64,000 nt of DNA from Erythrobacter sp. JK5 (GTDB taxonomy: Bacteria > Pseudomonadota > Alphaproteobacteria > Sphingomonadales > Sphingomonadaceae): contig NZ_CP073577.1 in NCBI RefSeq assembly GCF_018205975.1, forward strand, positions 3,224,001-3,288,000. Direction: 5' to 3'. This document shows positions 10,994 to 60,857 of this stretch, piece after piece. The first letter of the stretch is position 1, and each line of letters begins with the position of its first letter. The notes under the pieces were generated by a model. That model was given only the letters and a program-made list of their open reading frames with translations, ran no database searches and was not told the DNA's origin. A program made the position numbers and the translations under genes.

Positions 10994-11065
10994 GCGAGCG
11001 CCGTGGTGGCACGGTCCATCGCGCGGTGCAACTCCCCAGCGTCGGGGATCGTCCACAGCGCCGGA

Positions 11066-43374: not shown

Positions 43375-44901
43375 ATGGCAAAGTCAGTTAACAACAATGA
43401 GACCATCGAAAAGGCCATGTGGGCAGCGGCGGACAAGCTGCGCAAGAACATTGACGCGGCGGAATACAAGCACGTCGTCCTTGGCCTGATCTTCCTCAAA
43501 TACATCTCGGACGCTTTCGACGAGCTCTATGCCAAGCTTGTCGCAGGAGAAGGCGAATACGCGGGCGCAGACCCTGAGGATGTGGACGAGTACAAGGCCG
43601 AGAATGTCTTCTTCGTGCCGCCATCCGCGCGCTGGAAGTTTCTGCAAAGCCACGCCAAGCAGCCGACTATCGGCAAGACCGTTGACGAGGCGATGGACGC
43701 CATCGAGCGCGAGAACCCCAGCCTGCGCGGCGTGCTGCCCAAGGTCTATGCGCGAGGCAATTTGGACCCAACCAATCTCGGCGGTCTGATCGATCTGATC
43801 AGCAATTCCGAAAGTCAGCACGGCAAGGAAGGCAACGCCGACTTCCTCGGCCAGACCTTTGAATACTTCCTCGGCCATTTCGCGCTCGCAGAAGGCAAGA
43901 AGGGCGGCCAGTTCTATACGCCTGAAAGCGTGGTGCGCGTGCTGGTCGAGATGCTGGAGCCCTATAAGGGCCGCGTGTTCGATCCGTGTTGCGGGTCTGG
44001 AGGGCTGTTCGTGCAGTCGGAGAAATTCGTCGCCGCGCACCAGGGCAAGGTCAATGACATCTCGATCTATGGGCAGGAGAGCAATCAGACGACGTGGCGG
44101 CTGGCAAAGATGAACCTTGCCATTCGTGGGATAGACTCCAGCCAGGTCAAATGGAACAATGAGGGTTCATTCCTCAACAACGCGCATCCGGACCTAAAGG
44201 CCGATTTCGTGATTGCGAACCCGCCGTTCAACGATAGTGATTGGGGCGGTGACCTGCTTCGCGACGACGCGCGATGGACCTTTGGAACGCCGCCAGCGGG
44301 CAATGCCAATTACGGCTGGATTCAGCACTTCCTCTATCACCTGGCACCGGGCGGGAAGGCGGGCTTTGTTCTTTCCAAGGGGGCGCTTACAACCAAGTCA
44401 TCGGGTGAAGGGGAAATCCGCAAGGCCCTGATCGAAGCGGGGCTGGTCGATTGCATTGTCAACCTGCCTGCCAAGTTGTTTCTGAACACGCAAATCCCGG
44501 CGAGCTTGTGGTTCCTTAGTCGGGGAACGACTTATCGCCCCAATGAAATCCTGTTCATCGATGCGCGCAACCTGGGTCACTTGATCAATCGCCGCACGCT
44601 GGAGTTTTCGGATGATGACATCGCGCAGATCATCGGCACCTACCACGAGTGGCAGAAGGGTGACGAGGGTAGCTACGAGGACGTGAAAGGCTTCTGCAAT
44701 TCCGCCTCGCTGGAGCGTGTGCGCAAGCTAGACCATGTGCTGACTCCGGGGCGCTACGTCGGGCTGGCTGAGGAAGAAGACGATTTTGACTTTGCCGCGC
44801 GGTTCAAGAGCTTGAAGGCGGAGTTCGAGGCACAGTTGGAAGAAGAGGCGAAGCTGAATGCACGGATCGCGGAGAACTTAGCGAAGGTGCAGCTGCCGTG
44901 A
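43375..44901 (+). CDS. hsdM: type I restriction-modification system, methyltransferase subunit M
   Basis: 508 residues. N-terminal helical HsdM_N ('[36 protein letters not shown]'), then the N6-adenine methyltransferase domain with SAM motif '[12 protein letters not shown]' and catalytic '[11 protein letters not shown]' (NPPF). It ends with a coiled segment ('[19 protein letters not shown]') for HsdS contact. Its stop overlaps the GTG start of hsdS. Confidence 0.96.
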
Positions 44902-46043
44902 TCGAGGGGTGGCGAGAATACAAAATCGAGGACTTAGCTGAAATCAGGAATCAGTCTCGCGTTCCGTTGAGCAAACTTGAGCGGTCGCAACGGAGCGGGC
45001 CGTATCCGTACTACGGGGCTTCGGGGATCATCGATTATGTCGATGGCTTTCTGTTTGAAGGAGAGCACGTTCTCATCTCGGAGGACGGGGAGAACTTAAA
45101 ATCTCGAAAAACTCCGATTGCGTTCAAGGCTGATGGACGGTTCTGGGTCAACAATCATGCGCATATTTTGAAGGGTAAGAAGGCTTTTCACAATGATCTG
45201 ATCTGCCACTATTTCAGTCAGTTGGACTTGAGCGCTCACATCACAGGCGCTGTCCAGCCGAAGCTAAGCAAGGCAAGCCTAACCAGCATTCCGATACTCC
45301 TTCCGGAAGATGAGGGCGAACAAGAAACGATTGCGGAGGTCCTTTCATCGCTAGACGACAAGATTGATCTGCTTCGCCGCCAGGACGCCACTCTGGAGGC
45401 GCTTGCCGAGACCCTCTTCCGACAGTCTTTCATCGAAAACGCACAAGATGATTGGGAAGAGGGCACTCTTGATGATGTGCTGACAGTGAAAGGCGGAACG
45501 ACGCCGAGCACGAAGAACGAAGCCTTCTGGGATGGGGACATCCATTGGACTAGTCCGAAGGACTTGACCGGAAACAATGGGCTTTTCTTGCTAGACACAG
45601 CACGCAAAATCACACCGGAAGGGCTCGCAACGATTAGTTCTGGCTTGCTTCCGGCTGGGTCACTCTTGATGTCTTCAAGGGCACCCGTTGGCTGTTTGGC
45701 GTTCTCGGTAAATCCTGTGGCGATCAATCAAGGATACATAGGCATTCTGGATGAAAAGGGTTTCTCGAAAGAGTTTCTAATTCTTTGGCTCAAAACTCAC
45801 ATGGATTACGTCAAGAGCTATGCCAACGGTTCGACGTTCCAAGAGATCAGTAAGTCGACTTTCAAGAGGTTGGAAATCTCGAAGCCGCCCGAACCATTGC
45901 GACTTAAGTTTCAGGCAACCGTTTCGCCAATTTTCGGAAGACTATTCGAAAACGCCCTGCAAATTCAGAGTCTGGAGCGGCTTCGCGATACATTGCTGCC
46001 TCGACTTATGTCAGGTGCCGTGAGGGTCGACCTCAGCGCATGA
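44898..46043 (+). CDS. hsdS: type I restriction-modification system, specificity subunit S
   Basis: 381 residues with two target-recognition domains. TRD1 is ~1-140 and ends in the conserved helix '[37 protein letters not shown]'. TRD2 is ~155-330, starting with the typical '[33 protein letters not shown]', and ends with '[16 protein letters not shown]'. It sets the DNA recognition site for both methylation and cleavage. Recognition sequence cannot be predicted here. GTG start, coupled to hsdM. Confidence 0.95.
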
Positions 46044-46684
46044 GTATCGAACGTCTTGAAGCGATAATTGACCAACACGGGCGTTGGTCTGATCTGAAGG
46101 TTTACACTGACCGGATTGAAGCTCATGCCGAAAGTGATTTCAGTCATGCGCTGGAGAATGCGAAGGCGCTGTTGGAGACAATTTGCAAAGAGATTTGCGC
46201 TTCCAAGGGCGTGGACATGGGTGCGGCTGCGTCCATCCAAGCCCTTATGAAACGGGCGTTTAAGGAAATAGGCTATCCGCCCAGCGATTTGGTAACGCAG
46301 GTCTCCACTTCTCTCGGCACCATTGGCCAGAAAATGGGGGAGTTGAGGAACCAGATCAGCCCCACGTCTCATGGAAAGACACTGGATGATCTCAAGAAGA
46401 GAAATGACCTCATCGACGACCTAACAAGAGAGTTCCTGATTGATACGACAGTTTCCGTCGCCTCTCTCATGATCCGGACCTTTGAAGGGGCAAGCCCAAG
46501 GACGAAGCCTAAGGACGTTTTGCTGTACACCGATTGCGAGGACTTCAACGAACTGCTGGACGAGACCAACGAGCCCTTCCAAATTGGCATAAACAGCTAC
46601 CCTGCAAGTGAAGCATTCTACGGCGTTGATCGCACTTCTTACGAGTCAGAATATCGCAAGTTCTTGGAGGGTGACGATGAATAA
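46040..46684 (+). CDS. abortive infection family protein (Abi_C domain)
   Basis: 214 residues. 'DFSHALENAKALLETICKEIC' and 'GTIGQKMGELRNQISPTSHGK' match the Abi_C pattern (ALE-AK-LLE ... LRN ... HG); the C-terminal ~70 residues are variable and acidic. Proteins with this domain are tied to phage-triggered growth arrest. It overlaps hsdS by four bases and hsdR by eight, so it is an integral part of the RM operon and not a neighbour by chance. Whether it acts alone or senses RM failure is unknown. Confidence 0.8.
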   Translation: MSIERLEAIIDQHGRWSDLKVYTDRIEAHAESDFSHALENAKALLETICKEICASKGVDMGAAASIQALMKRAFKEIGYPPSDLVTQVSTSLGTIGQKMGELRNQISPTSHGKTLDDLKKRNDLIDDLTREFLIDTTVSVASLMIRTFEGASPRTKPKDVLLYTDCEDFNELLDETNEPFQIGINSYPASEAFYGVDRTSYESEYRKFLEGDDE

Positions 46685-49600
46685 GCTCACCGAATCTGAG
46701 ATCGAAGAGTTCGCAATTTCGCTCCTCGAACGGCAGGGCTATGACTATCTATACGCCCCTGAGATTGCGCCCGATGGCGACCGGCCTGAGCGGGCCAGCT
46801 TTGCCGATGTCGTGCTGGTGGATCGGCTGCGCGAAGCGGTGGCCCGGATCAATCCAAACATCCCGCCAGACAGCCGCGAGGAGGCCATCCGGCAGGTGCT
46901 GTGTTTTACCGCGCCGGACCTGATCGCCAACAATCAGGCGTTCCACCGCCTCCTGACCGAAGGTGTGAACGTCTCGCGCAATGCGGAGGGTAGTGAGCGC
47001 GGCGACCTTGTCTGGCTAGTAGATTTCGACAATCCGGAGATCAACACGTTCCTCGCCGTGAACCAGTTCACCGTTATCGAGGAACAGGTGCAGAAACGGC
47101 CCGACATCATTCTGTTCGTCAACGGCCTACCGCTGGGCGTGATCGAGCTGAAGAATGCAGGCGATGAACAGGCGACGGTCAAATCTGCTTTCAAGCAGAT
47201 CGAAACCTACAAGGCGACGATACCTTCGCTCTTCGCTTACAACGGCCTGTGCATGATCTCTGACGGTCTGGAGGCGAAGGCCGGATCGATCTCTGCCGGG
47301 TGGTCCCGCTTCATGAAGTGGAAGACCGCCGATGGTCTCTCCGAGGCAAACCCGTTGGTCGGCGAAATGGAGACAATGATCGCCGGAACGCTGAATAAGG
47401 CCACGTTCCTCGACCTGATCCGGCATTTCAATGTCTTCGAGACGGCGGAGAAGCAAGACCCCAAGACCGGGCTTGTCACCGTCCAGACGATCAAGAAGCT
47501 CGCCAGCTATCACCAGTACTACGCGGTGAACAAAGCCGTGCAATCGACCCTGCGCGCGGCTGGATTCATCAATTCCCGTGGCCAGCGGAGAAAAGGTGAT
47601 CTGCGCGAAGACCCTTTGAAGTACGGTCTGCCCACCACGAGCGGCAAACCCGCCAGCGACCGCAAGGGTGGGGTCGTCTGGCATACGCAAGGTTCGGGCA
47701 AATCGCTTTCGATGGTGTTCTATGCGGGCAAGATAGTGCTCGCGATGGACAATCCGACGATTGTTGTAATCACAGACCGTAATGATCTGGATGATCAGTT
47801 GTTCGACACTTTCGCCAGCTCGCGCCAATTGTTGCGACAAGACCCGGTACAGGCCGATAGCCAGAAACATCTGAAGGAGCTGCTCAAGGTCAGCTCTGGC
47901 GGGATCGTCTTCACCACCATCCAGAAATTCCACCCGGATGAGGGCAACGTCTACGAAACGCTTTCGGAGCGCGAGAACATCATCGTGCTGGCGGACGAAG
48001 CGCACCGCACTCAGTACGGCTTCCGCGCCAAGACCATCGACGAGAAGGACGACGACGGAAATGTAGTCGGCAAGAAGACGGTCTACGGCTTCGCCAAGTA
48101 TATGCGCGATGCCTTGCCGCACGCGACGTATCTCGGCTTCACCGGTACACCTGTTGAAAGCACCGATGCCAACACCGCGCAGGTATTTGGCGACTACGTC
48201 GATGTTTATGACATCGCGCAGGCCGTGGAAGACGGCGCGACTGTCCCGATCTTCTACGAAAGCCGCTTGGCGAAAATTCGCCTGAGCGAGCAAGGGCAGG
48301 AGCTAGTCAAGGCCCTGGACGATGAGCTCGCGCAAGAAGACCTGACTGAAAACCAGAAGAGCCTAGCCAAGTGGACGCAGCTCGAAGCGCTGATTGGGGC
48401 GGACGACCGTGTGAAGCGCGTAGCCTATGACATCGTGGAGCACTTCACCGCCCGCCAACAAGTGAACAACGGCGGCAAGGGCATGATCGTAGCGATGTCG
48501 CGCCGGATCGCTGCTGATCTGTTCGATGCCATTGTCGCCCTACGCCCTGATTGGAACGATGAAGACCTCGCCAAAGGCAAAATCAAAATTGTGATGACCG
48601 CTGCCTCTTCCGATGGACCGGACATCGCCAAGCACCACACAACCAAGGGCCAGCGCCGCGATCTGGCGGAGCGGATGCGCAATCCAAACGATCCACTCGA
48701 ACTGGTTATTGTTCGCGACATGTGGCTGACGGGCTTTGACGCGCCTTCGATGCACACGCTCTACATCGACAAACCGATGAGGGGGCACAACCTGATGCAG
48801 GCCATTGCCCGTGTGAACCGCGTCTATGGTGACAAAGAGGGCGGACTGGTTGTCGACTACCTCGGAATTGCGCACGACTTGAAGAAGGCGCTTAGCTTTT
48901 ACTCCGACGGGGGTGGCAAGGGTGATCCAGCCGTTGCGCAGGAGCAGGCCGTTGCTGCAATGCTGGAGAAGCTCGAAGTCGTCTCACAGATGTTCCATGG
49001 CTTCGCCTATGAAGAGTATTTCACGGCAAACACAGGCCGCAAGCTATCAATTATCCTTGAAGCCGAAGACCACATTCTTGGCCTAGAGAATGGCAAGACC
49101 CGCTTCGTGAACGAGGTAAGCGCGCTGTCGGGGGCGCTCTCGATTGCTATTCCCCATGAGCAAGCGATGGATGCCAAGGACGAGGTCGCATTCTTTCAAG
49201 CGGTGAAGGCGCGGCTGGTGAAGTTCGATGCATCAGGCGCTGGTCGCACCGACGAAGAGCTTGAAACCGCCATCCGCCAGACCATCGATCAGGCTCTAGT
49301 GAGTGAGCAGGTAATCGACATCTTCGATGCGGCTGGGATCAAGAAGCCAGATATTTCGATACTATCCGACGAGTTCCTTGCGGATGTCAAAAACCACAAG
49401 CACGAGAACGTCGCGCTCGAGCTGCTCAAGCGTCTGCTTGATGGAGAGATCAAAGCCCGCACGAAGAGCAACCTCGTGCAGAGCAAGTCGCTGATGGAAA
49501 TGCTCCAGGACTCTATCAAGCGCTATCACAACAAGGTGATCACGGCGGCAGAGTTCATGGACGAGCTGATTGGCCACGCGAAGCATATGCGCGACCTAGA

Positions 49601-49913
49601 CAAGGAGCCGGAAGAACTTGGTCTAAGTGCCGAGGAGTATGCATTCTACACGGCGGTTGCCAACAATGAGAGTGCGCGAGAGCTGATGGAGAAAGAGAAA
49701 CTTCGCGAGTTGGCTATCGTGCTGTTTGAGAAAGTTCGAGAGAACGCCTCAATCGACTGGACAATCAAAGAGAGCGTGCGGGCTAAGCTCAAGGTCATCA
49801 TCAAACGCACCCTGCGCCAGTTCGGCTATCCGCCAGACATGCAGTTGCTGGCTACTGAGACAGTCTTGGAGCAAGCGAAACTTATCGCACAGGAACTGAA
49901 TGGGGCAGGCTGA
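46677..49913 (+). CDS. hsdR: type I restriction-modification system, endonuclease/translocase subunit R
   Basis: 1078 residues. N-terminal PD-(D/E)xK nuclease with 'RPDIILFVNGLPLGVIELKNAG' (D...ELK, ~residues 140-160). SF2 motor with Walker A 'TQGSGKSLSM', DEAH box 'LADEAHRTQYG', motif III 'FTGTPVE' and motif VI 'QAIARVNRVYGDKEG'. A helical C-terminal domain binds the M/S complex. I chose ATG 46677 (MNKLTESEI); it overlaps the Abi_C gene by eight bases. The enzyme looks intact. Confidence 0.96.
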   Translation: MNKLTESEIEEFAISLLERQGYDYLYAPEIAPDGDRPERASFADVVLVDRLREAVARINPNIPPDSREEAIRQVLCFTAPDLIANNQAFHRLLTEGVNVSRNAEGSERGDLVWLVDFDNPEINTFLAVNQFTVIEEQVQKRPDIILFVNGLPLGVIELKNAGDEQATVKSAFKQIETYKATIPSLFAYNGLCMISDGLEAKAGSISAGWSRFMKWKTADGLSEANPLVGEMETMIAGTLNKATFLDLIRHFNVFETAEKQDPKTGLVTVQTIKKLASYHQYYAVNKAVQSTLRAAGFINSRGQRRKGDLREDPLKYGLPTTSGKPASDRKGGVVWHTQGSGKSLSMVFYAGKIVLAMDNPTIVVITDRNDLDDQLFDTFASSRQLLRQDPVQADSQKHLKELLKVSSGGIVFTTIQKFHPDEGNVYETLSERENIIVLADEAHRTQYGFRAKTIDEKDDDGNVVGKKTVYGFAKYMRDALPHATYLGFTGTPVESTDANTAQVFGDYVDVYDIAQAVEDGATVPIFYESRLAKIRLSEQGQELVKALDDELAQEDLTENQKSLAKWTQLEALIGADDRVKRVAYDIVEHFTARQQVNNGGKGMIVAMSRRIAADLFDAIVALRPDWNDEDLAKGKIKIVMTAASSDGPDIAKHHTTKGQRRDLAERMRNPNDPLELVIVRDMWLTGFDAPSMHTLYIDKPMRGHNLMQAIARVNRVYGDKEGGLVVDYLGIAHDLKKALSFYSDGGGKGDPAVAQEQAVAAMLEKLEVVSQMFHGFAYEEYFTANTGRKLSIILEAEDHILGLENGKTRFVNEVSALSGALSIAIPHEQAMDAKDEVAFFQAVKARLVKFDASGAGRTDEELETAIRQTIDQALVSEQVIDIFDAAGIKKPDISILSDEFLADVKNHKHENVALELLKRLLDGEIKARTKSNLVQSKSLMEMLQDSIKRYHNKVITAAEFMDELIGHAKHMRDLDKEPEELGLSAEEYAFYTAVANNESARELMEKEKLRELAIVLFEKVRENASIDWTIKESVRAKLKVIIKRTLRQFGYPPDMQLLATETVLEQAKLIAQELNGAG

Positions 49914-50103: not shown

Positions 50104-50689
50104 CCCTTTTCCCGATGTTCCCTGAAGCCTTGTAACTCTCGCCCACAATATCCGGGATCTGGCCAATGGGGTTATTTCTCTCCCTGCGGGCGTGGGCCGG
50201 CTCGATTGCCGGTGATCGAGTGGCATGCCGTTCAGCTGGTTCGAAATTCCGAACCGCATCAGTCGGCGCGAGAGGAATCGGAGGTGGGGCTGCAAGCCCA
50301 TTGGGGTTCGACGTCATGTCGATTCCATCGGATCGGGGATTGATCCCAAGATTTCGCCGCCCGCACCGCGCTTTGCGTCTTGTTCCAGGCGCAGGCCACT
50401 GCGCTCCTATTGGCGCTGCTGGACGCCCGGGCGACGCCAGGCAAACTGCGTGTAGAGACCATGCTGCAAAGGGGGCGGGACCGTTCCGGGAGCCGGCTGC
50501 ATTATCGATACGCGGCCTTGCCCAAGTGCCGGTCGTCACACCGATATTTCTTTTTGTCAGTCCGAATGAATTGGTCTAGGCTTTGCCTGCCGCGGGGGGT
50601 TCAGCACATTATTTCGGGTCATTTTGCGTCCGGTGGCAGCTCTAGCGAGCAGGCGATGCGCCTGCGCAAATGGGGAGGACGGACCTGAA
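50104..50689. other. stretch without a supported gene
   Basis: Between attR and the first tail-collar gene no reading frame shows a recognisable family. The longest minus-strand frame here, ending at 50030, is compositionally weak and runs across attR into island sequence. Nothing else is seen apart from an AT-richer stretch around 50540-50575 that could contain the promoter of the next gene. Confidence 0.5.
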
Positions 50690-51226
50690 ATGGAAGGATA
50701 TCTCGCTCAGATCATCATGTTCGGGGGCAACTTTGCCCCGCGCAACTGGGCATTCTGCCACGGTCAGTTGCTCGCCATCAGTTCCAATTCCGCGCTGTTC
50801 TCGCTCCTGGGAACCGCCTATGGCGGCGACGGGCGGACCACTTTCGGGCTTCCGGATCTGCGAGGCCGCGTGCCGATCGGTCAGGGTGCCGGTCCGGGAT
50901 TGCCCAACAATATACTCGGACAGAAGGGCGGAAGTCCGACAACGACTCTGACCGTCGCCAATCTTCCGCCGCACAATCACGCTGCCACCCTGCACGCGGA
51001 AAGCGACGTGGGCAGCTCGGGGGCGCCGACCAATGCGCTGCTCGGCGTGGTCACCGGCGCGACCAAGATCTATGCGCCGTCGGTTCCTGCAGACCAGGTC
51101 GCGATGCATCCCGACAGCATCACCGTGGGCAACACCGGCGGCGGCACGTCGTTCAGCAACGAACAGCCGTATCAGGTGCTGCATTATGTCATTTGCACCC
51201 AAGGGATCTATCCGAGCAGGAACTGA
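50690..51226 (+). CDS. phage tail collar domain protein (MdpB-like), copy 1
   Basis: 178 residues. The N-terminal tail-collar domain is plain: 'IIMFGGNFAPRNWAFCHGQLLAISSNSALFSLLGTAYGGDGRTTFGLPDLRGRVPIG'. The C-terminal half has a Gly/Thr-rich part and ends in 'PSRN'. Such 'microcystin-dependent protein'-like genes are common in bacterial chromosomes without a complete phage; the function is unknown, with a secreted or surface fibre-like protein as the usual guess. I chose ATG 50690, which starts the domain. Confidence 0.88.
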   Translation: MEGYLAQIIMFGGNFAPRNWAFCHGQLLAISSNSALFSLLGTAYGGDGRTTFGLPDLRGRVPIGQGAGPGLPNNILGQKGGSPTTTLTVANLPPHNHAATLHAESDVGSSGAPTNALLGVVTGATKIYAPSVPADQVAMHPDSITVGNTGGGTSFSNEQPYQVLHYVICTQGIYPSRN

Positions 51227-51282: not shown

Positions 51283-51819
51283 ATGGACCCGTTTATTGGA
51301 CAGATCGTGATGTTTGGGGGCAATTTCGCTCCGCGTGGCTGGGCATTTTGCGATGGGCAATTGCTGTCGATCGCGCAGAATACGGCGCTGTTTTCGATCC
51401 TTGGGACGATTTACGGCGGCGATGGGCGGACGAATTTCGCGCTGCCGGAAATGCGCGGCCGCGTGGTTATGCACGAGGGCAACGGGCCCGGACTCGATCC
51501 GAAAAACCTCGGCGAGCGCGGCGGCGTCAACACCAATACGCTGACTGTGAACAATCTGCCGCCGCACAATCACACCGCCACCCTGCACGCGGAAAGCGAT
51601 GTCGGCACTTCGGGCAACCCGACGAATTCGATGCTCGGCGTGATCACCGGTGCGAACAAGATCTACGCCCCGTCGGTCCCGGCGGCGAACGTGCCGATGC
51701 ATCCGGACAGCATCGTCGTGTCGAACACCGGCAGCGGGCAGTCGTTCACCAACGAGCCGCCGTACACGGTCGTCAACTACATCATCGCGCTGGTCGGAAC
51801 CTTCCCGAGCCGCAACTGA
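51283..51819 (+). CDS. phage tail collar domain protein (MdpB-like), copy 2
   Basis: 178 residues, the same length and clearly paralogous to the gene 57 bp upstream: shared 'VMFGGNFAPRGWAFCDGQLL', 'DGRT', 'NLPPHNH.ATLHAESDVG' and 'PSRN' end. A GGAGGGAG ribosome-binding site precedes the ATG. A tandem duplication followed by divergence is the simple reading. Confidence 0.88.
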   Translation: MDPFIGQIVMFGGNFAPRGWAFCDGQLLSIAQNTALFSILGTIYGGDGRTNFALPEMRGRVVMHEGNGPGLDPKNLGERGGVNTNTLTVNNLPPHNHTATLHAESDVGTSGNPTNSMLGVITGANKIYAPSVPAANVPMHPDSIVVSNTGSGQSFTNEPPYTVVNYIIALVGTFPSRN

Positions 51820-51938: not shown

Positions 51939-52097
51939 TCAGGACATTTGCAAAATGGTCGGAAACTCGGACGGATCGGGAAACGGACCCGTCTCGGTGC
52001 CCTTCACGTCAAGGACGCGAAGTTCCGGTTTGACGAACGGCTTCCGGCCGCTGGCGGCGCTCACATTTTCACGGTCTGCCAATGAATATCTCCCCAT
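51939..52097 (-). CDS. putative lasso peptide precursor (A)
   Basis: 52 codons from ATG 52097, or 47 from TTG 52082, which has the better-spaced GGGGAGA site. The leader has the B1-recognition pattern aromatic-x-x-P-x-L ('FVKPELRVLDVKGTET'). A likely core is 'GPFPDPSEFPTILQMS': Gly1 to Glu8 would close an eight-residue macrolactam ring (a nine-residue ring Thr1-Glu9 is possible if cleavage is one residue earlier). The last residue is Ser, the site phosphorylated by the kinase in paeninodin-type lasso peptides. It lies ~56 bp after the C gene on the same strand. Confidence 0.75.
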   Translation of the reverse strand: MGRYSLADRENVSAASGRKPFVKPELRVLDVKGTETGPFPDPSEFPTILQMS

Positions 52098-52153: not shown

Positions 52154-54013
52154 TCAGCGGGTCTCGTCCAGCCAGATCGACACCTGCCGCAATTGCCAGA
52201 AGTACATTCGGCGGCGCATGTCGGAATCTTCGAACCGGTCGCGCGAACGATGCAGCGCCTGCGCGGTATCGGCGAAGGCCGCAGGGTCGATGATCGAACG
52301 CAAAACGTCCGGCAATTCTTCGAATGCCATGGCCGGCGGGTCTTCTAGCGGTGGCCGCCCGCCGATAAACCCGCCCATGCTCTTGCCGACCTGCCATGCG
52401 ATCCGATCGGGAATTCTTCCGGCGACGGCCCGGCGGTGGAGATATCGCCCCATGTCCCGGCGCCGCTTCTCGATCGAGGGCGTCGCGAAGAATTGCTGGA
52501 TCAGTCGCCGGTCGAGCAGTGGAAAGCGGTAATCCATGCCGTAACTGGCAGCATAGATGACCGAGCTTTCGAGCCGCCCCTGTCGCCCAAGCCGGAATCC
52601 GGGATAGAGCCCGGCCAGCGTGTTGAGCGTCAGCTCGGATCGTTCGGGGCAAACCCACTCTTCGAGCTGCTGCGCCAGGCCCGAGTCTTCGACAAAGTCG
52701 CGGCGCAGGCAAGCGACATCGAGCTTCGTGGCGATCAGCTGCCGCATGGCGAGATCGGGGTCCTCGGGGCCGCGCTTCAGGCGCCTCGCGAGGCGCACGA
52801 GCCGACGCGGCAGCGAGCCTCCTAGCTCGTCGAGCATGGCACGGTATTCGCCCCGCGCATGCAGTTCGTCGATCAGGGGCTTGGCATAGCTGGTGGCGAC
52901 CTCGTCGCCGCCGAAGCCGGAGAACAGGGTCCTGATCCCCAACATGCCGCACCACTCGAAAAATTCCGGGTAGACCAGCGGCTGGCCATGTTCGGGCGGA
53001 TGGCCGAGGGTCGCCAGCGCGCGATCGAATGCGGCATCGACGCGCAACAGCCTCGGCTGCATCAGGACGTGGGTATGGCGGATGTCGCACATCGCCGCGC
53101 ACGCCATCACCGTTTCTGGCTCATCTTCCATCGCGATCATTGCGAAGGTGTGAAAATCGTCGCGATCATGCGGCAGGCGTTCGGCGAGCGACGCAATCAC
53201 CGATGACGAATCGAGCCCGCCGGTCGCTTCGGCACCGATCAGGAAGTGGCTGCGCGCGCGATCCGCGACTGCACGGTCGAACGCATCGCGATAACGCTCG
53301 ACCCAGCGAACGTCGCGGCGGGTCGCGTGCGGCGCTGCGAGATCGAATGCAAAGAATTCGCGCGGCTCGCACGTTCCCTCACGAACGATCAACAGGTCGT
53401 GCGCTGACGGAAGCTTCTTCACCTCTTCGTAAGCGGCCTGCGTATGCGCGAAATTGAGCACCGATGCGAACAGTGCGATCCATTCGCGGCTCGGGGCCAA
53501 CGCCTGCCCCGTCAGCACTCGCATCACCGCGACCGAAGTGGCGGCGACGAAATGCTCATCGGTCAGGATGTAGTAAAGCGGCTTGGCTCCGATCGCGTCG
53601 CGTGCGCACCAGGCTTCATGCCGGGCGGGATCGTAGATGACGAAGCTGAAATCGCCTTCAAGCCTGGCCGCACAATCGCGGCCCCAGCGGCGATGCGCGA
53701 CGAGCACAATCTGCGGGTCGGTGAGCGTCGCCCGGGGCTGCAGGCCGAGTTCGGCGCACAGCTCCGCGCGATTATCGAGCCGCATCCAGCTGGCGATCAC
53801 CCGGCCGGTTTCGGGGCAGGTTTCGGGCGCGTGCTCGTGGAGCGATTCGGGCGTGTTGTGCCACAGCGCCTGCGCGACGATCGCGTGATCGCCTTGCCAC
53901 ACACCCTGCTTGTCGGGTTTCGCAAAGGGCATCATCGCCGCAAGCAGCGCCTCGCCGGTTGCGAGCTCCTGCGGCGCGGCGCGCGAGCCGCGCATCAAGA
54001 TGGCGGCGAACAC
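52154..54013 (-). CDS. lasso peptide cyclase (asparagine synthetase-like, C protein)
   Basis: 619 residues of the AsnB fold. The N-terminal glutaminase-like domain lacks the catalytic Cys2 (it starts Met-Phe-Ala), as expected for cyclases that need no ammonia. The synthetase domain keeps the PP-loop as 'ATGGLDSSSVIASL' and 'FSGFGGDEVATS'. It adenylates the ring Asp/Glu and forms the isopeptide bond with the core N-terminus. It follows the PqqD-like gene by 6 bp and precedes the precursor gene. Confidence 0.9.
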   Translation of the reverse strand: MFAAILMRGSRAAPQELATGEALLAAMMPFAKPDKQGVWQGDHAIVAQALWHNTPESLHEHAPETCPETGRVIASWMRLDNRAELCAELGLQPRATLTDPQIVLVAHRRWGRDCAARLEGDFSFVIYDPARHEAWCARDAIGAKPLYYILTDEHFVAATSVAVMRVLTGQALAPSREWIALFASVLNFAHTQAAYEEVKKLPSAHDLLIVREGTCEPREFFAFDLAAPHATRRDVRWVERYRDAFDRAVADRARSHFLIGAEATGGLDSSSVIASLAERLPHDRDDFHTFAMIAMEDEPETVMACAAMCDIRHTHVLMQPRLLRVDAAFDRALATLGHPPEHGQPLVYPEFFEWCGMLGIRTLFSGFGGDEVATSYAKPLIDELHARGEYRAMLDELGGSLPRRLVRLARRLKRGPEDPDLAMRQLIATKLDVACLRRDFVEDSGLAQQLEEWVCPERSELTLNTLAGLYPGFRLGRQGRLESSVIYAASYGMDYRFPLLDRRLIQQFFATPSIEKRRRDMGRYLHRRAVAGRIPDRIAWQVGKSMGGFIGGRPPLEDPPAMAFEELPDVLRSIIDPAAFADTAQALHRSRDRFEDSDMRRRMYFWQLRQVSIWLDETR

Positions 54014-54019
54014 GTCCGC

Positions 54020-54313
54020 TCAGTTGGCGGCGGTTACGAGTCCGTTGCTGAGCAGCTTGTCGACGAATTCGGCGACGGTTCGTTCAAGATCCTCCACGTC
54101 GCTTGTGTCGAATTCGCGCCGCAGCTCGGCGACGATTTCCTCGAGCGTCGCCGGGCTGTCCATCGCCGCCCAGATCTGACTGCCTGTGCCCGTGATCGCG
54201 AAATACACCCCCTTGTCGATGTCCATCATCACGGTCTCGCCGTCCATTTCGGCGGCGACGACGCCGACGGTTTGTGTGAGCCTGGTGTCGGGTGCAAACG
54301 ATGGTGCGGTCAT
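54020..54313 (-). CDS. PqqD-like RiPP recognition element (lasso B1)
   Basis: 97 residues with the PqqD winged-helix fold: 'EMDGETVMMDIDKGVYFAITGTGSQIWAAMDSPATLEEIVAELRREF'. In lasso systems this protein binds the leader peptide and presents it to the B2 protease and the C cyclase. Its start overlaps the kinase gene stop (ATGA). Confidence 0.92.
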   Translation of the reverse strand: MTAPSFAPDTRLTQTVGVVAAEMDGETVMMDIDKGVYFAITGTGSQIWAAMDSPATLEEIVAELRREFDTSDVEDLERTVAEFVDKLLSNGLVTAAN

Positions 54314-55299
54314 GGTGTTGCCCTCATTGTCTCTCGGTCCGCGTCGCGGCCAGCGGGATCAGTGCCCGGAATGGTTCCGAATGTCGCCAGAAGAGCATCG
54401 ATCAACGCGTCTATATCGAACCCGGCGGTCGGGCGCGAGACCCGGAAAAGCGGTGTATCTTGAGCAATCGCCGCCACCCGCTTGAGATACAGAACCTCGA
54501 GTTCGAGGGGGAGGAGGTATTCCGGACGGTAGATATTGTTGCGCAGCACAGCGAATTTCTCGACCCCGTTGAGCTGTCGCACCTGAACCTGCGCTACATC
54601 TTCGGGCACCAGCCAGAAGAACGCGCCGATTGCCTGAGGCTTGCGGCACTGATCGTCCCCGATGGGCAGGTTGAACTTGGGGTCGGCTTCGCGAACGCGG
54701 GCCAGCTCCGACGTGTCGATGCCGAGCCGCTGCGCGGTGTCGAGCCACAGCTTTGCGCGCGGCATGCCGGGCAGCACCCGTCCATCCGCGCCGATCGGGC
54801 ACACGTCATCGGCGAGCATCGCGTGGCCACGCTGCAGCATGGCAATCGCGGTGGTCGATTTGCCCGCGCCGGTATCGCCGATGCACATGATCGCCCGGTC
54901 GGAGCCATCGACGGACACCGCGTTGCCGTGAACGACGACATGCCCGCGCTGCATCAGGATCGCGCCAAGGCCCGAGCCGAGCAGGAACAGCCGCATCTCG
55001 TCCTCCGCCACGCCGGGGTAGCGCGTGTAGATGATCGAGCGGCCGTCGCTGATTGTCATGCGCAGCCGGTCAGGGAAATCGAGCCACAACCGGCCGGGTT
55101 CTCCATCGACGAAAGTGCTGACATTGAGCGGATCGTCCGCTGTCGGGGGTGGAACATCCCCTTCGCGAATAACGATGTCGGGCTCGGCGGAGTCTTCGGC
55201 TGGATAAAGTTCGGGCAGATCGAGATCGCAGACGACATTGAGCCCGTACACCCGGCGCATCATCCTGGCGGGAGCGGCTGTGCTGCTCGTATCGGTCAT
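54310..55299 (-). CDS. HPr kinase-like protein of the lasso cluster (K)
   Basis: 329 residues. The C-terminal half is the HprK/P kinase fold: Walker A 'CIGDTGAGKSTTAIAML' (~residues 139-155), followed by 'ADDVCPIGAD' and a 'PGMPRAKLWLD' loop. No PTS HPr partner gene is visible. Kinases of this type in lasso clusters (PadeK, ThcoK) phosphorylate the C-terminal Ser of the precursor, and the precursor here ends in Ser. First gene of the transcript K-B1-C-A. Confidence 0.88.
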   Translation of the reverse strand: MTDTSSTAAPARMMRRVYGLNVVCDLDLPELYPAEDSAEPDIVIREGDVPPPTADDPLNVSTFVDGEPGRLWLDFPDRLRMTISDGRSIIYTRYPGVAEDEMRLFLLGSGLGAILMQRGHVVVHGNAVSVDGSDRAIMCIGDTGAGKSTTAIAMLQRGHAMLADDVCPIGADGRVLPGMPRAKLWLDTAQRLGIDTSELARVREADPKFNLPIGDDQCRKPQAIGAFFWLVPEDVAQVQVRQLNGVEKFAVLRNNIYRPEYLLPLELEVLYLKRVAAIAQDTPLFRVSRPTAGFDIDALIDALLATFGTIPGTDPAGRDADRETMRATP

Positions 55300-55410: not shown

Positions 55411-55905
55411 ATGCTTGGCAAGGCATTGGAACTGTTCCCGGCGCTTGGGCGAAAACTGCGGACGGCCGCCGGATTGCCGATCGCAACGGTGGGCCTGACG
55501 GGCGCGGTGTGGGTGCTGTTGTGGCCCGCCCGACTGGCGGTGGCCATCTTTCCGTTGCGCCGGCTGGTGCGTTTCTACGGGCGCGATCATGGCGCGCGGG
55601 TCGTGATCCCCGAAGCATCGTCCCGCGAACTGGACCTTGCCCGTCAGATCGGCGAAGCGATCGCGATCGCGGTGCGCTACAGCCCGGCTTCCGCCAATTG
55701 CTATCCGCAGGCGCTGGTGGCGCGGGCGCTGCTGCGCTGGCGGCGCGTGCCGCACGGTCTGTTCTTCGGATTGCGCCGGGGCTCCGACGACAAGGAGATG
55801 GAGGCGCATGCCTGGGTGATGGTTGGCGATTGCGCGGTGAGCGGCGGCAACAGCTTCGATCAATACACCGTGGTCCGCTGCTTCTCTTCGCCCGGTGTCC
55901 GCTAG
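55411..55905 (+). CDS. lasso peptide biosynthesis B2 protein (transglutaminase-like protease)
   Basis: 164 residues. The catalytic Cys is in 'SANCYPQALVARALLRWRRVPHGLFFGL', the His in 'EAHAWVMVGD' and the Asp follows ('VGDCAVSGG'). It removes the leader from the precursor. A membrane-like N-terminal stretch ('LPIATVGLTGAVWVLLWPARLAVAIFPL') is typical. It is divergent from the K-B1-C-A transcript with a 111-bp shared upstream region, where the other B, C and K parts usually share one strand. Confidence 0.9.
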   Translation: MLGKALELFPALGRKLRTAAGLPIATVGLTGAVWVLLWPARLAVAIFPLRRLVRFYGRDHGARVVIPEASSRELDLARQIGEAIAIAVRYSPASANCYPQALVARALLRWRRVPHGLFFGLRRGSDDKEMEAHAWVMVGDCAVSGGNSFDQYTVVRCFSSPGVR

Positions 55906-55990: not shown

Positions 55991-58900
55991 CTACATCCGC
56001 ACGCGGGCACCGAGGTAGAAGTAGGTGCCGACCGGGCTGACCGGATAGGCCTGCTCGGTCACGAACGGCTGGCGGTCGAAGATGTTGTTCACCCCGCCAT
56101 AGACGTCGAACATGTCGCTCACATCGAGATTGAACGAAATGTCGTGGATGAAGGCATCGCTCGAAAGACCGTTTTCGGGCGAATAGAGATCCTGCCCGGT
56201 GTTGCCGACGCTCTCGATCTCGACCGCGCGCAGGCCCTGGCTGTCGACATAGGTGGTCGACCAGGTCAGGCTGATTGCGTTCCAGTCCCAGGTCAGCGAC
56301 GCACGGCCCGCCCATTCGGGCCGCTGCAGTTCGCCCAGCTCGGGATCGACGTTGGTCAGGTCGCTCGGATCGAAGAAATCGTCGAGCTTGTCGACCCAGG
56401 TCCCGCTGCCGTTGAGCGTGAAGGTGTGGTCGCCAAGATCGAAGCGATACTGCGCCGCCACTTCGACGCCCGCGGTTTCCCGGCGGGCGAAATTGAGCAG
56501 AACCTGTTCGAGGAAGGTGAAGCCGCCCGTGTTCGGGTTACGCGTCACGAGATCGCAGAACTGGTTGTCGATGCTCGAGCTGTCCACGCAATTGTCGACG
56601 ATGTCCTGCGCGGACACGTTGTTGATCGCGTCCTCGATTTCGATGTTGTAGTAATCGACACTGAGGATCAGGCCCGGCAGGAAGCGCGGGGTGATCTGGG
56701 CACCGACAGTCCACGTCGTGGCGGTTTCCACATCGAGTTCGGGGTTGCCCGCCTGCGTGCCGGAGAAGCGCGCGGTGAGCGGATCGACATAGCTGTAGCC
56801 ACCGCCGCCAAAGGTCGGATCGAAGCCGATATTGGCGAAGAAGGCGGAACAGTTCGCCTGGCGCAGGGTCGGATCGGGCGCCGAGCCGATGTTGCCGACA
56901 TCGCACGGATCGACCGGACGGAAGAACGCGCCCTGTGGCGGATCGAACAGCTCGTTGATGTTCGGCGCGCGCACGGCCTGAGCGTAGGTCCCGCGGAACA
57001 GGATGTCCTCGCTCGGTGCCCACAGTCCGTTGACGTTCCAGGTGAAATTGCCGCCCGAGGTCGAGTAGTCGGCATAACGACCGGCCGCACTCAATTCGAG
57101 CGTTTCGGCAAATGGCACGCCTGCGAGGATCGGCAGGCGAAGCTCGCCGAACAGTTCGTAAACGGTGAATTCGCCGCCGGCATTGGCGGTCTGTGTCGCC
57201 GGGTCGAACACCAGCGAATTCTGCACGCCGCCGGTCACGTCACCGACAAAGTCGCCGGCGTTGCCGAGATCGGTGGTCACCGGCAGGATGCCGAGGATCA
57301 GCGGATCGAACCGCGAATTGCTCTGCTCCTCGCGGAATTCGAAACCCGCAGCGAAGCCGACGGGGCCGCCGGGAAGCTCGAAGAACGCGCCGGTATCGCC
57401 GGTAAAGACCGCACTGAACACCAGCTGTTCGAGCGCGAAGCGATTGACCGTCGTGGTGGTAATGAAATCGATCGCATCCTGGCTGATCGCGCCGACACCG
57501 CCGAGGATGTTGGCCGGACGGCACGAGCCGTCGCCGGGGTTGAAGGTCAGGAACCCGGGGTCGCCCGCGGGGATGCCGAACGGCGTTGTCGCGGGCGGGG
57601 TGGGATCGATATCCGAGCGGCATATCGGCTGGCCGTTGGGCCCGGTCACCACGTCGATCGCGGCGAACCAGCGATCGGTGATTACCCGGTTGGCATCGTT
57701 CACCGTCAGGTCGAACTTGCCGTAATTGGCGCTGAATTCGTACGACAGGTGATCGGTAATGTCGCCGCGCAGGCCACCGACGAAACGCCAGGTTTCGGTT
57801 TCGTTGCGGTTGCGGTTCGGGCCGAGATCGGTCGGGTCGCGGGTGATGTAGAGCCCTTCCTGCACTCCGTCGCCGAACAGCAGTTCGCCGACAAAGGGTT
57901 GCAGCGCGGGCGTGATGAACGGGTTGTCGCTGCGGATCGTCAGCAGGTCGTAGAACGTATTCGGCTGAGCCTGGAATTCGGCCGAAGTCGACACGTACTT
58001 GCCTTCGAAGAACAGCTCCGCCTCGGTCGAGAATTCGTAGCTCGCATTGACGTTGATCGACCAGCGCTCGGTTTCGGGAGTGAGCGAGTTCTGATCGAAG
58101 TTGTTCTCGATGCCCGGGCCGCCGAACTGGTTGAACAGGCCGGTGATAAGTCCGTCCTGATACACCGAGACGCTGCCGTCCGGGTTGATGTTGGCACAGC
58201 CGCCGGCAAGCCCGAACGCGCCGGGCTGGAAGGTGCTGTTGAAGCCAACCGAGGATTCCAGGCAGTCCGGGATGCCGTTGTTGTTGATATCGGGGCCGTC
58301 ATCGACACCGATCAGGCCGGGCGCGACAACGCCGCCCGCCGACGACAGCGAGAACCGCGGATCGCTGGCGATGAAGCGGCGGGGCGCGTTCGCGGCGCGA
58401 TCGATGAGCGCGAGCTCGGCCGAGGTCAGCGTCGGGTTGACGCCGAACTCGTCGAAATAGTCCGCGATGAAATCGTCGGCCGAGGGAATCAGGAAACCGG
58501 TCGGGAAGCCACCGACACCGACTGCGAAGAAATCGGCGAAGTTCGGCGTATCGGTGCCGATATCGCCCGTCTGAAAGCGCAGCGCCGGATTGGCCTGATC
58601 GTCGAAGACACCGTTGTTGCGCGAGAAATCGCGGTCACCGAATTGCAGCTCTTCGCTATAGGCGTATTCGCCGGAAACGGTGATGTTCCCGCGCCCGTCG
58701 GCGAAATTGGAGCCCCACGTGAGGTCGCCGTTGATCCGCCAAGCATCGCCTTCGGACGAGATGCCCGACTGCACATTGCCTTCGATCCCTTCGAACTTGT
58801 CGCGCAGCACGAAGTTGACCACGCCGGTCACCGCGTCCGCACCGTAGATCGACGATGCGCCGCCGGTCAGCGTTTCGACCCGCTCTATCAGCGCGCTGGG

Positions 58901-59335
58901 GATCGAGTTGATATCGACCGCCTGCTGCCCGGCGACACCCGCAACATGGCGGCGACCGTTGACCAGCACCAGGGTCCGGTTGGCTCCAAGACCGCGCAGG
59001 TTGAGCACGGATTGCCCGACCGCGAGATCGCCCGAGAACACGCCTGCAATCGAATCCTCGGCCGAGGTCGAAGTCGACAGGGCTGGCACGTCACGCAGGA
59101 CGTTGACGACATCGGCGGTGCCCGATTGCTGGATTTCTTCGCTGCCGATTGCGATGACAGGCGCCGGCGAACCGATATTGGGGTCGCGCGCGATGCGCGA
59201 ACCCACCACGACGATCTGCCGGTCTTCATCGGCGGACTCGTCCTGATCGGGCTGGGTCTGCGCGTGCGCCGCGAAGGGCATGGTGCTTGCGGCGGCAAGG
59301 AGGAGAGCCTGCGCCGAGAATTTGAAGCGTTGCAT
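55991..59335 (-). CDS. TonB-dependent outer membrane receptor
   Basis: 1114 residues. Signal peptide 'MQRFKFSAQALLLAAASTMPFAAHAQ'; plug domain ~45-170 ('VVNVLRDVPAL', 'LNLRGLGANRTLVLVNGRRH', 'IPSALIERVETLTGGASSIYGADAVTGVVNF'); the rest is a 22-strand barrel ending in aromatic/hydrophobic 'TYFYLGARVRM'. The plug type is that of sphingomonad receptors for oligomeric substrates, including peptides and sugars. The substrate is unknown; the neighbouring lasso cluster and secreted amidohydrolase are possible links. A palindrome lies just upstream of the start. Confidence 0.93.
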   Translation of the reverse strand: MQRFKFSAQALLLAAASTMPFAAHAQTQPDQDESADEDRQIVVVGSRIARDPNIGSPAPVIAIGSEEIQQSGTADVVNVLRDVPALSTSTSAEDSIAGVFSGDLAVGQSVLNLRGLGANRTLVLVNGRRHVAGVAGQQAVDINSIPSALIERVETLTGGASSIYGADAVTGVVNFVLRDKFEGIEGNVQSGISSEGDAWRINGDLTWGSNFADGRGNITVSGEYAYSEELQFGDRDFSRNNGVFDDQANPALRFQTGDIGTDTPNFADFFAVGVGGFPTGFLIPSADDFIADYFDEFGVNPTLTSAELALIDRAANAPRRFIASDPRFSLSSAGGVVAPGLIGVDDGPDINNNGIPDCLESSVGFNSTFQPGAFGLAGGCANINPDGSVSVYQDGLITGLFNQFGGPGIENNFDQNSLTPETERWSINVNASYEFSTEAELFFEGKYVSTSAEFQAQPNTFYDLLTIRSDNPFITPALQPFVGELLFGDGVQEGLYITRDPTDLGPNRNRNETETWRFVGGLRGDITDHLSYEFSANYGKFDLTVNDANRVITDRWFAAIDVVTGPNGQPICRSDIDPTPPATTPFGIPAGDPGFLTFNPGDGSCRPANILGGVGAISQDAIDFITTTTVNRFALEQLVFSAVFTGDTGAFFELPGGPVGFAAGFEFREEQSNSRFDPLILGILPVTTDLGNAGDFVGDVTGGVQNSLVFDPATQTANAGGEFTVYELFGELRLPILAGVPFAETLELSAAGRYADYSTSGGNFTWNVNGLWAPSEDILFRGTYAQAVRAPNINELFDPPQGAFFRPVDPCDVGNIGSAPDPTLRQANCSAFFANIGFDPTFGGGGYSYVDPLTARFSGTQAGNPELDVETATTWTVGAQITPRFLPGLILSVDYYNIEIEDAINNVSAQDIVDNCVDSSSIDNQFCDLVTRNPNTGGFTFLEQVLLNFARRETAGVEVAAQYRFDLGDHTFTLNGSGTWVDKLDDFFDPSDLTNVDPELGELQRPEWAGRASLTWDWNAISLTWSTTYVDSQGLRAVEIESVGNTGQDLYSPENGLSSDAFIHDISFNLDVSDMFDVYGGVNNIFDRQPFVTEQAYPVSPVGTYFYLGARVRM

Positions 59336-59507: not shown

Positions 59508-60782
59508 CTACTCGTTCTTGAAGATTTCGCCGGCCTTCATGACGAACTGCACGTTTTCAAGCAGCGCGACATCTGCAAGCGGGTTGCCATTCACCGCGAT
59601 GATATCGGCCGATGCGCCCGCCGCGATCACTCCGAGTGTACCCTTCTGCCCGAGGGCGTCCGCGGAATTGAGAGTCGCCGCGCGCAGCGCCTCCGCGCTC
59701 GTCATGCCGAACTGAACCATCCGCGACAATTGCCGGGCGTTCTGCCCGTGCGGGTAAACGCCGGCATCGGTGCCGAACGACATCTTCGCGCCAGCCCGGT
59801 GCGCCTTGCGGAAATTGTCGCGCTGCGTCTGACCGACCACGCGCTCCTTCTCGAGGCTCTCGGGCAGTATTCCCGCTGCTTCGCCTTCGCCGAGAATGAA
59901 TTCGGTGACGTAGATATCCATATTGAGATAGGCCCCGCTCTCACGCGCGAGCCGGATGCCTTCGTCGTCGATGAAGCTGGCATGCTCGATCGTGTCGACC
60001 CCGGCCTTGAGCGCGTTGACGATACCTTCAGCGCCGTGCGCATGGCTCGCTACCCTCAATCCATGGCTGTGCGCCTCCTCGACCAGCGCGGTCAGCTCCT
60101 CGACGGTGTATTGCGGAGCGCCGACCTTGGTGCCCTTCGACAGGACCCCGCCGGTCGAGCAGGTCTTGATAAGGTCGACGCCGAACTTGCGGTTCTTGCG
60201 CACCGCCGCGCGCGCCGCCCACGGGCCGTCCGCGACATTCTCGCCGCTCGCTTCGTATTCGGGCGGCAGCAGGTTGTTGTCCGAGCAATGCCCGCCGGTG
60301 ATTCCGATCGGCGGGCCGGAAACGAACATCCGCGGGCCGACGATGTCGCCTTCCGCGATGGCGTCGCGCAGATCGACATCTCCGAAACTCCCTGCGCCGA
60401 CGTTGCGCACGGTGGTGAAGCCCGCCATCAGGGTGCGTTCGGCGTTGACCACGCCGGTGATGACCGCGCGCTCGTCGGAAATCGCGAGCCGACGATAGCC
60501 GTGCACGTCACTGTCGCTGGTAAGGTGGACGTGCATGTCGATCAGGCCGGGCAGGATCGTCTTGCCCGCGAGGTCAACATAGTCGGCGCCATCTACCTGC
60601 GGCGCTGCGCCCGTCGTCACCGAAACGATGACGCCGTCCTCGATCGTGACCACCGGGTCGGCAACCAGTCGCCCGCGTTCGACATCGACCATTGCATCGG
60701 CAGTGAGGATCATGGTGTCGGCCAGCACGGCGGCGGGAGCGACCAGAACGGCGGCGGCGAGCGCGATGGTGCGTAGTTTCAT
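59508..60782 (-). CDS. exported amidohydrolase (Xaa-Pro dipeptidase/imidazolonepropionase-like)
   Basis: 424 residues with a Sec signal peptide ('MKLRTIALAAAVLVAPAAVLA'). The metal site is complete: HxH in 'GLIDMHVHL', a bridging Lys in 'VDLIKTCSTGG', His in 'VASHAHG', His in 'TIEHASF' and Asp in 'SFGTDAGVYPHG'. These M38-like enzymes cleave dipeptides, often with C-terminal Pro, Arg or Lys, in the periplasm. It lies upstream of the TonB receptor on the same strand. I chose ATG 60782 because the upstream stretch is only Arg-rich. Confidence 0.88.
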   Translation of the reverse strand: MKLRTIALAAAVLVAPAAVLADTMILTADAMVDVERGRLVADPVVTIEDGVIVSVTTGAAPQVDGADYVDLAGKTILPGLIDMHVHLTSDSDVHGYRRLAISDERAVITGVVNAERTLMAGFTTVRNVGAGSFGDVDLRDAIAEGDIVGPRMFVSGPPIGITGGHCSDNNLLPPEYEASGENVADGPWAARAAVRKNRKFGVDLIKTCSTGGVLSKGTKVGAPQYTVEELTALVEEAHSHGLRVASHAHGAEGIVNALKAGVDTIEHASFIDDEGIRLARESGAYLNMDIYVTEFILGEGEAAGILPESLEKERVVGQTQRDNFRKAHRAGAKMSFGTDAGVYPHGQNARQLSRMVQFGMTSAEALRAATLNSADALGQKGTLGVIAAGASADIIAVNGNPLADVALLENVQFVMKAGEIFKNE

Positions 60783-60857
60783 GCGAGGTCTCCTGCGAAA
60801 TCGCAGCAGGCGTATCAGCTTTCGGCGGAACGGCAAATGCCGCCGGCAAGAGGGCTG

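Follow-up and report, generated by a model that had tools for sequence, protein, structure and literature searches.

A lasso peptide precursor gene in a kinase-bearing cluster of Erythrobacter sp. JK5, with phage-tail-collar genes as neighbors

A short open frame on the minus strand of the Erythrobacter sp. JK5 genome, next to the genes of a putative lasso peptide cluster with an HPr-kinase-like protein, raises the question of whether it encodes the precursor of a lasso peptide and, if so, where its ring would close and which residue the kinase would modify. According to our analysis of the surrounding 64-kb stretch of DNA (here, the window), the frame is a genuine lasso precursor gene in a kinase-bearing cluster and is a fresh addition to the known group of such clusters, which includes paeninodin and SyanA/SyanK. 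The features are collected in Table 1. Translation of positions 51939 to 52097 on the minus strand gives MGRYSLADRENVSAASGRKPFVKPELRVLDVKGTETGPFPDPSEFPTILQMS followed by a stop codon, with LQMS at its C-terminal end. The earlier note had described an open frame here, 56 bp past the cyclase gene, with an F-x-x-P-x-L motif, a Gly-to-Glu ring spacing and a final Ser, all of which were confirmed by the translation and the coordinates. The frame may be opened either by ATG at 52097, 56 bp past the cyclase ORF (52154-54013), or by TTG at 52082, 71 bp past it. Judging from the nucleotide sequence, the TTG start with 47 codons appears likelier than the ATG start with 52, since a GGGGAG site lies 7 nt upstream of the TTG and since the orthologue in a congener (G009) has an ATG aligned to this TTG, with GGGAG at a similar spacing.

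Table 1. Features of the lasso precursor locus (positions within the window).
Feature	Position	Strand	Remarks
Second tandem collar-domain protein	50624..51226	+	PF07484 98.9 bits
Phage-tail-collar-domain protein, convergent with precursor	51283..51819	+	PF07484 102 bits
Lasso precursor gene A	51939..52082	-	47 codons from TTG; alternative ATG at 52097, 52 codons
Predicted core TGPFPDPSEFPTILQMS	51942..51992	-	Predicted ring Thr1-Glu9; Ser17 putative phosphorylation site
Leader, 30 residues	51993..52082	-	F-x-x-P-x-L motif, Thr at -2; read against homologues and the L118/L119 precursors
Shine-Dalgarno-like GGGGAGA	52089..52095	-	Upstream of TTG start, from sequence
C, asparagine-synthase-like macrolactam synthetase	52154..54013	-	PF00733 82.6 bits, cut-off 21; NF033535 228 bits, below cut-off 525
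B1, PqqD-like RRE	54020..54313	-	PF05402 61.7 bits, cut-off 23.4
K, HPr-kinase-like lasso precursor kinase	54310..55299	-	PF07475 (HPr kinase C-terminal domain) 33.7 bits, cut-off 33.3
B2, transglutaminase-like leader peptidase, divergent from K	55411..55905	+	NF033537 70.8 bits, cut-off 33; PF13471
TonB-dependent receptor, next to B2	55991..59335	-	PF00593, PF07715

The identification as a lasso precursor is borne out by the company that the gene keeps. K, B1, C and A run on one strand, and B2 lies on the opposite strand, 111 bp beyond K, so that a precursor with a leader motif, an RRE-type B1, a B2 peptidase and a cyclase, the constituents of a split-B lasso cluster, stand together with an HPr-kinase-like K. 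While B2 exceeds its NCBIfam cut-off, B1 and C exceed the Pfam cut-offs and stay below the NCBIfam lasso ones (69.1 bits against 80 for B1). The structures matched by B1 are the TbiB1 RRE (5v1u/5v1v, E 1.1e-7) and a lasso PqqD-family chaperone (9x90, E 2.6e-8); the best PDB matches of the kinase profile are HPr kinases, and a PDB search with the precursor itself gave no meaningful match. Against the profile of the paeninodin family precursor (NF033524), the precursor scored 14.4 bits (E 0.023), below the cut-off of 27, and it is therefore not filed in that curated sequence family. Reading by eye the ORFs at 44-62 kb, we recognized neither an exporter nor an isopeptidase; the TonB receptor beside the cluster may serve to take up the peptide or fragments of it. 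Farther out lie a Xaa-Pro dipeptidase-type amidohydrolase gene upstream of the receptor gene (59508-60836, minus strand; NF051886, 607 bits, above cut-off) and, to the left of the collar genes, what reads as a type I restriction-modification set of methylase, specificity and helicase-like subunits (43375-49913, plus strand).

The cluster of paeninodin from Paenibacillus dendritiformis (PadeA/PadeK; order C A K B1 B2 D), as far as the accounts used here describe it, shares with the window the split B1/B2 pair, the cyclase, the HPr-like kinase and the C-terminal Ser of the precursor. The window differs in its order A-C-B1-K with B2 divergent, in having no recognized exporter and in carrying a TonB receptor and collar genes alongside; the ring acceptor is Glu in the window, whereas it is Asp in paeninodin. 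At the level of the cluster, and not by peptide sequence, the window can likewise be compared with SyanA/SyanK, the putative kinase-bearing lasso cluster of a proteobacterium, Sphingobium yanoikuyae ATCC 51230, for which passages of PMC9266682 describe phosphorylation of the terminal Ser up to four times; for one putative proteobacterial kinase cluster, the relevant passage of PMC5067487 gives the order A B1 B2 C K D. BsfA/BsfK from Bradymonas sediminis shares the kinase and the split B proteins. According to the sections of PMC10368454 on this system, the last residue of BsfA is Asp and BsfK phosphorylates its Ser3, and relatives with Ile/Val(-2) come from Sphingomonadales, whereas in the window precursor Thr occupies -2 and Ser is the final residue. 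The precursor WP_142339111.1 of Priestia aryabhattai shares the PEL-VLDV leader, Thr(-2), a 9-residue ring by position and the terminal Ser (the boundary is our reading), but its core, with the ring LGGSGEYTD, is unrelated.

Closer relatives of the precursor are few. In the genome itself and 60 relatives, a precursor match at E <= 0.1 was obtained in 4 of 61, of which only the gene itself and the one in G009 (contig C2) are convincing; the latter lies downstream of C-B1-K, and a B2 match is absent from the 15 kb around that cluster and was found only elsewhere in the genome. A four-precursor profile run against 397 genomes of the family returned five matches, namely, the gene itself, two genomes built into the profile (G269 and G454) and two from outside the profile-building set (G536 and G375), both with C, B1, K and B2 matches around the precursor within the 20 kb examined. 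In G375, which belongs to another genus, the precursor MDKFAAAESGGKKPFLKPELEKLQIERTGSGPVPDPFEFPMILQMS divides at the predicted boundary into KKPFLKPELEKLQIERTG/SGPVPDPFEFPMILQMS (the slash marks predicted cleavage), and the gene order is that of the window, with A-C-B1-K on one strand and B2 divergent. Two findings had been named beforehand as telling against the gene, loss of the frame where K-B1-C-B2 are kept and a better precursor nearby: G375 keeps both frame and arrangement, and a strict precursor pattern finds no rival in the window. Looser versions of the precursor occur in three further genomes (loci L061, L064 and L125). By tblastn, the lasso genes of the window found no counterpart in two loci with weak precursor matches (L054 and L055).

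We consider it very probable that the gene encodes the precursor of a lasso peptide of the paeninodin kind, with a Thr1-Glu9 ring and a phosphate on Ser17; having no Cys, the peptide is class II by that criterion. What is observed is the gene, its conservation, its neighbors, the kinase residues and the conserved Thr(-2), Glu9 and terminal Ser; all of the chemistry, the sequence of its steps and the threaded fold are inferred. B1 would bind the F(-15)xxPxL motif and present the leader, the target of K would be the C-terminal Ser, B2 together with B1 would cleave after Thr(-2)-Glu(-1), and C would form the amide between the Thr1 amine and the Glu9 side chain. The predicted product is TGPFPDPSEFPTILQMS, threaded through a ring of nine residues, three of them proline, and carrying a phosphate on Ser17. 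The order B1, K, B2, C is taken from the paeninodin work as presented in parts of PMC9266682 and PMC5067487.

The neighboring kinase probably phosphorylates the last residue of the precursor. Its residues H124, K147, D164 and D165, invariant across 14 aligned kinases, form the His-Lys-Asp-Asp set that passages of PMC9266682 and PMC10368454 describe for lasso kinases, and two hallmarks of a kinase-tailored lasso cluster, an HPr-kinase homologue with this set and a precursor with a C-terminal Ser, are found here. The pertinent text of PMC9266682 states that PadeK phosphorylates the C-terminal Ser of its precursor and that this Ser is conserved in kinase clusters. The terminal Ser, pointed out beforehand as the last residue, is kept in six of six homologues (window, G009, G375, L061, L064 and L125). 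A kinase match at E <= 1e-6 was obtained in 37 of the 100 genomes searched in the genus; we examined 18 genus kinase loci and the two loci with weak precursor matches, choosing precursors by eye from motif ORFs. The kinase loci yielded 17 precursors in 15 of the 18, all 17 ending in Ser, while no precursor was seen by eye in L037, L045 and L047. From 12 order-level loci combining collar and lasso genes came 11 precursors, 10 ending in Ser and one in Thr (L080), with none seen by eye in L078. Including the window, 28 of 29 end in Ser, and L125 and L126 add two more. Over the kinase-bearing loci examined in the order, 30 of 33 by-eye precursors end in Ser (17 from the genus, 11 from order-level collar loci, the window, two in L125/L126 and two in L098). 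When motif ORFs are taken by rule alone, the Ser-ending share is 35 of 74 near a kinase versus 23 of 147 elsewhere.

The same lasso peptide could be phosphorylated on another hydroxyl (Thr1, Ser8 or Thr12), as BsfK phosphorylates Ser3, but we deem this unlikely. The kinase site does differ among clusters, according to the portions of PMC10368454 that deal with it, and all six homologues have a hydroxyl residue, Thr or Ser, at position 1; however, Ser8 and Thr12 are not kept across the six, Thr1 is required as the ring amine and sits at the cleavage site, and it is the terminal Ser that recurs in 6/6 homologues and in 30/33 precursors of kinase loci. Phosphorylation of Ser17 is thus preferred, and yet a kinase implying a terminal Ser is not a law, since the two L098 precursors lack it and L080 ends in Thr. 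L095 also counts against a strict rule, having a cyclase match and a pattern ORF with Ser at its end but no kinase match in its 20 kb. As a kinase-free control, 19 B2 loci without a kinase-profile match are uninformative on the terminal residue, since no aromatic-xxPxL precursor was recognizable in them by eye.

L098 (G000:C1:3089000-3108000) is a second kinase-bearing lasso cluster in the window's own genome. Its precursors (11052-11285 and 11457-11642, minus strand) end in Ala and Pro and read LTA/AGSGPLTE...RRA and LTA/GGSGAQTE...RRP at inferred boundaries, sharing a Ser at core position 3, which is the BsfK site in another system; its neighbors, by eye, are ABC transporter-like and methyltransferase-like genes. 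In the kinase tree, its kinase is the longest terminal branch, and the kinases of the window, G009, G013, L061 and L064 group together (support 97/96). Elsewhere, L044 (163-866, plus strand) carries three tandem precursor genes in one cluster, each ending in YGS, and in the kinase-linked precursors of L039, L043, L051 and L089 the predicted core starts with Asn (for example, DIE/NGFAPGVD and DVQ/NGSFAGND), with Ile, Val or Thr at -2. Asn would be an unusual first core residue, if this boundary is right.

Where the ring closes depends on the start of the core. Ungapped from the aromatic residue, the six homologues read as follows: window, FVKPELRVLDVKGTE/TGPFPDPSEFPTILQMS; G009, FEKPELHVLDIAGTA/TGPFPDPSEFPSILQMS; G375, FLKPELEKLQIERTG/SGPVPDPFEFPMILQMS; L061, YTAPVLHSLDASETR/TGPKTFTQEILTLFTPS; L064, YRKPELTCLDADQTA/TGPATFTQEVLIYYTPPS; and L125, YSKPVLQRMDASETE/TGTAVFTQEVLVYYTPPS. 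The boundary regions of the three looser versions are ETR/TGPKTFTQE (L061), QTA/TGPATFTQE (L064) and ETE/TGTAVFTQE (L125), and all three end in Ser. Thr(-2), Gly2, Glu9 and the last Ser are kept in 6/6, and core residue 1 is Thr in five and Ser in one. The aromatic-to-core spacing in this register is 15 residues, the same as in two precursors whose boundaries are our reading and not taken from their records: that of P. aryabhattai (44 residues, annotated in its record as 'paeninodin family lasso peptide'; WKKPELEVLDVNKTM/LGGSGEYTD...FES) and an unannotated ORF of Paenibacillus cellulosilyticus (WQAPVVEALEISETM/AGAGTKYID), both with Thr(-2) and Ser last. A MAFFT alignment at default gap settings put the Priestia core in a different position. 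Since Thr(-2), Glu9 and the last Ser occur in all six homologues at the 15-residue spacing, the core is most likely, on this alignment, TGPFPDPSEFPTILQMS with a Thr1-Glu9 ring instead of a Gly1-Glu8 one. Thr(-2) is described in PMC10368454, in the part concerned, for all previously reported lasso precursors, with Ile/Val as exceptions; the same source places YxxPxL of Bradymonadales precursors at -17 to -12 with Ile(-2), a spacing from which the window departs while retaining Thr(-2).

The boundary favored in the earlier note, one residue later, would give the core GPFPDPSEFPTILQMS with an eight-residue Gly1-Glu8 ring. Gly is the usual first residue of lasso cores, this Gly is kept in 6/6 homologues, and an acceptor Glu occupies position 8 in that register in all six as it does position 9 in the other. 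This reading is nonetheless quite improbable: the Thr/Ser would fall at -1 and the penultimate leader residue would be E (window), A (G009), R (L061), A (L064), E (L125) or G (G375), against the published Thr(-2) rule (PMC10368454, as far as its relevant part goes), and the aromatic-to-core spacing would be 16, compared with 15 in L118 and L119 under Thr(-2). The Thr1-Glu9 and Gly1-Glu8 rings would be told apart by mass, with calculated [M+H]+ values of 1845.87 for the Thr1-Glu9 lasso (1925.84 with HPO3) and 1744.83 for the Gly1-Glu8 lasso (1824.79 with HPO3). We also dropped a core beginning with the Gly of KGTETG, which would have Val at -2 and Asp9; its motif-to-core spacing would be 12, and that Gly is absent in L061, L064 and L125. 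The string GPFPDPSE was absent from the open-access literature searched, the scope of which does not include precursor databases.

That the frame is a chance one has next to no probability: it is short and its start is probably TTG, but changes relative to G009 are in excess silent, homologues in G009 and G375 occupy the same place beside C, and about 0.03 such frames are expected in shuffled sequence. Over 35 codons including the stop, window and G009 differ synonymously in 18 codons and non-synonymously in 6, with 11 codons identical, and of the 29 base differences 21 fall at third positions; among the 18 codons of the core and its stop, 11 carry silent differences and 1 a non-silent one. 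The precursor pattern, composed post hoc with the window sequence already known ([FYW]xxPx[LIV], then T-x-[GASTNC], D/E at ring position 8-9, then 5-25 residues), matched 1 ORF in the window, whereas 60 dinucleotide shuffles averaged 0.033. The examined loci, 1.38 Mb in all, contain 20 matching ORFs, two of them (L083 and L085, identical ORFs) in loci without a detected lasso gene.

The most surprising feature near the precursor is the association with phage-tail-collar genes, the nearer of which lies 122 bp away (stop-to-stop frames). A collar search of 396 genomes of the order gave matches in 70, and 40 full-length collar loci (39 genomes) were chosen among the matches listed; the query was the window's own collar and may therefore favor collar loci with lasso clusters. 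In the 13-20 kb examined around each, 12 of the 40 have both a cyclase and a kinase match, compared with about 0.5 expected from kinase matches per genome, every kinase-type match counted (Poisson P about 2e-13); 27 have no lasso gene match, and one (L095) has a cyclase only. Conversely, collars stand at 7 of 19 genus kinase loci (the 18 plus the window, with L037 and L047 being short contigs), and those of L044/G025 lie just outside the examined piece. Tandem PF07484 genes beside kinase-type lasso clusters were seen in the window, L041-L045, L051, L060, L061, L064, L067, L071, L073, L076, L078-L080, L089, L094 and L125. Of 16 loci in which the distance between precursor and collar gene was measured, 12 have them no more than 350 bp apart and the other four 4-6 kb apart; the two are convergent in L061, L064 and the window, and divergent in eight and on the same strand in one of the other nine close loci. 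On the kinase tree (32 rows), the distribution of the collar label takes 6 changes versus 10.4 in shuffles, with 3 of 500 shuffles as low, which indicates a clustered trait that was gained or lost several times. No collars were detected at the clusters of G009, the nearest kinase relative of the window, or G375. Collars also occupy another setting, since a GNAT-type gene (one representative typed) is present in 19 of 46 collar loci compared.

A sulfotransferase family is present in 17 of 18 collar-lasso loci compared (L041, L042, L043, L045, L051, L060, L061, L064, L067, L071, L073, L076, L078, L079, L080, L089 and L094), the sole exception being the window, where none was found at 44-62 kb; a family with an Asp/Asn beta-hydroxylase representative (PF05118) is present in 8, the two together suggesting more heavily decorated lasso peptides. 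A link between lasso peptides and collar proteins (PF07484) was not found in the open-access literature searched, where, in the excerpts concerned, 'lasso peptide' and 'tail fiber protein' were mentioned together as unconnected entries in separate table rows. We tentatively propose, at somewhat less than even chances, that the kinase-type lasso clusters of this bacterial family belong to a composite system, of which the window would be one instance. In it, the tandem collar proteins encoded beside the precursor gene would work with the phosphorylated lasso peptide, which in many relatives may also be sulfated; they might, for example, bind it, display it or confer immunity to it.

A 2022 review (PMC9266682), in the part consulted, describes the role of lasso phosphorylation and of most other added modifications as still to be unraveled. 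The window gene offers a small testable kinase substrate whose predicted masses are exact, and the residues that kinase, peptidase and cyclase have to recognize can be seen from its relatives. If functional, the collar neighbors may give a clue to the site where the lasso peptide acts.
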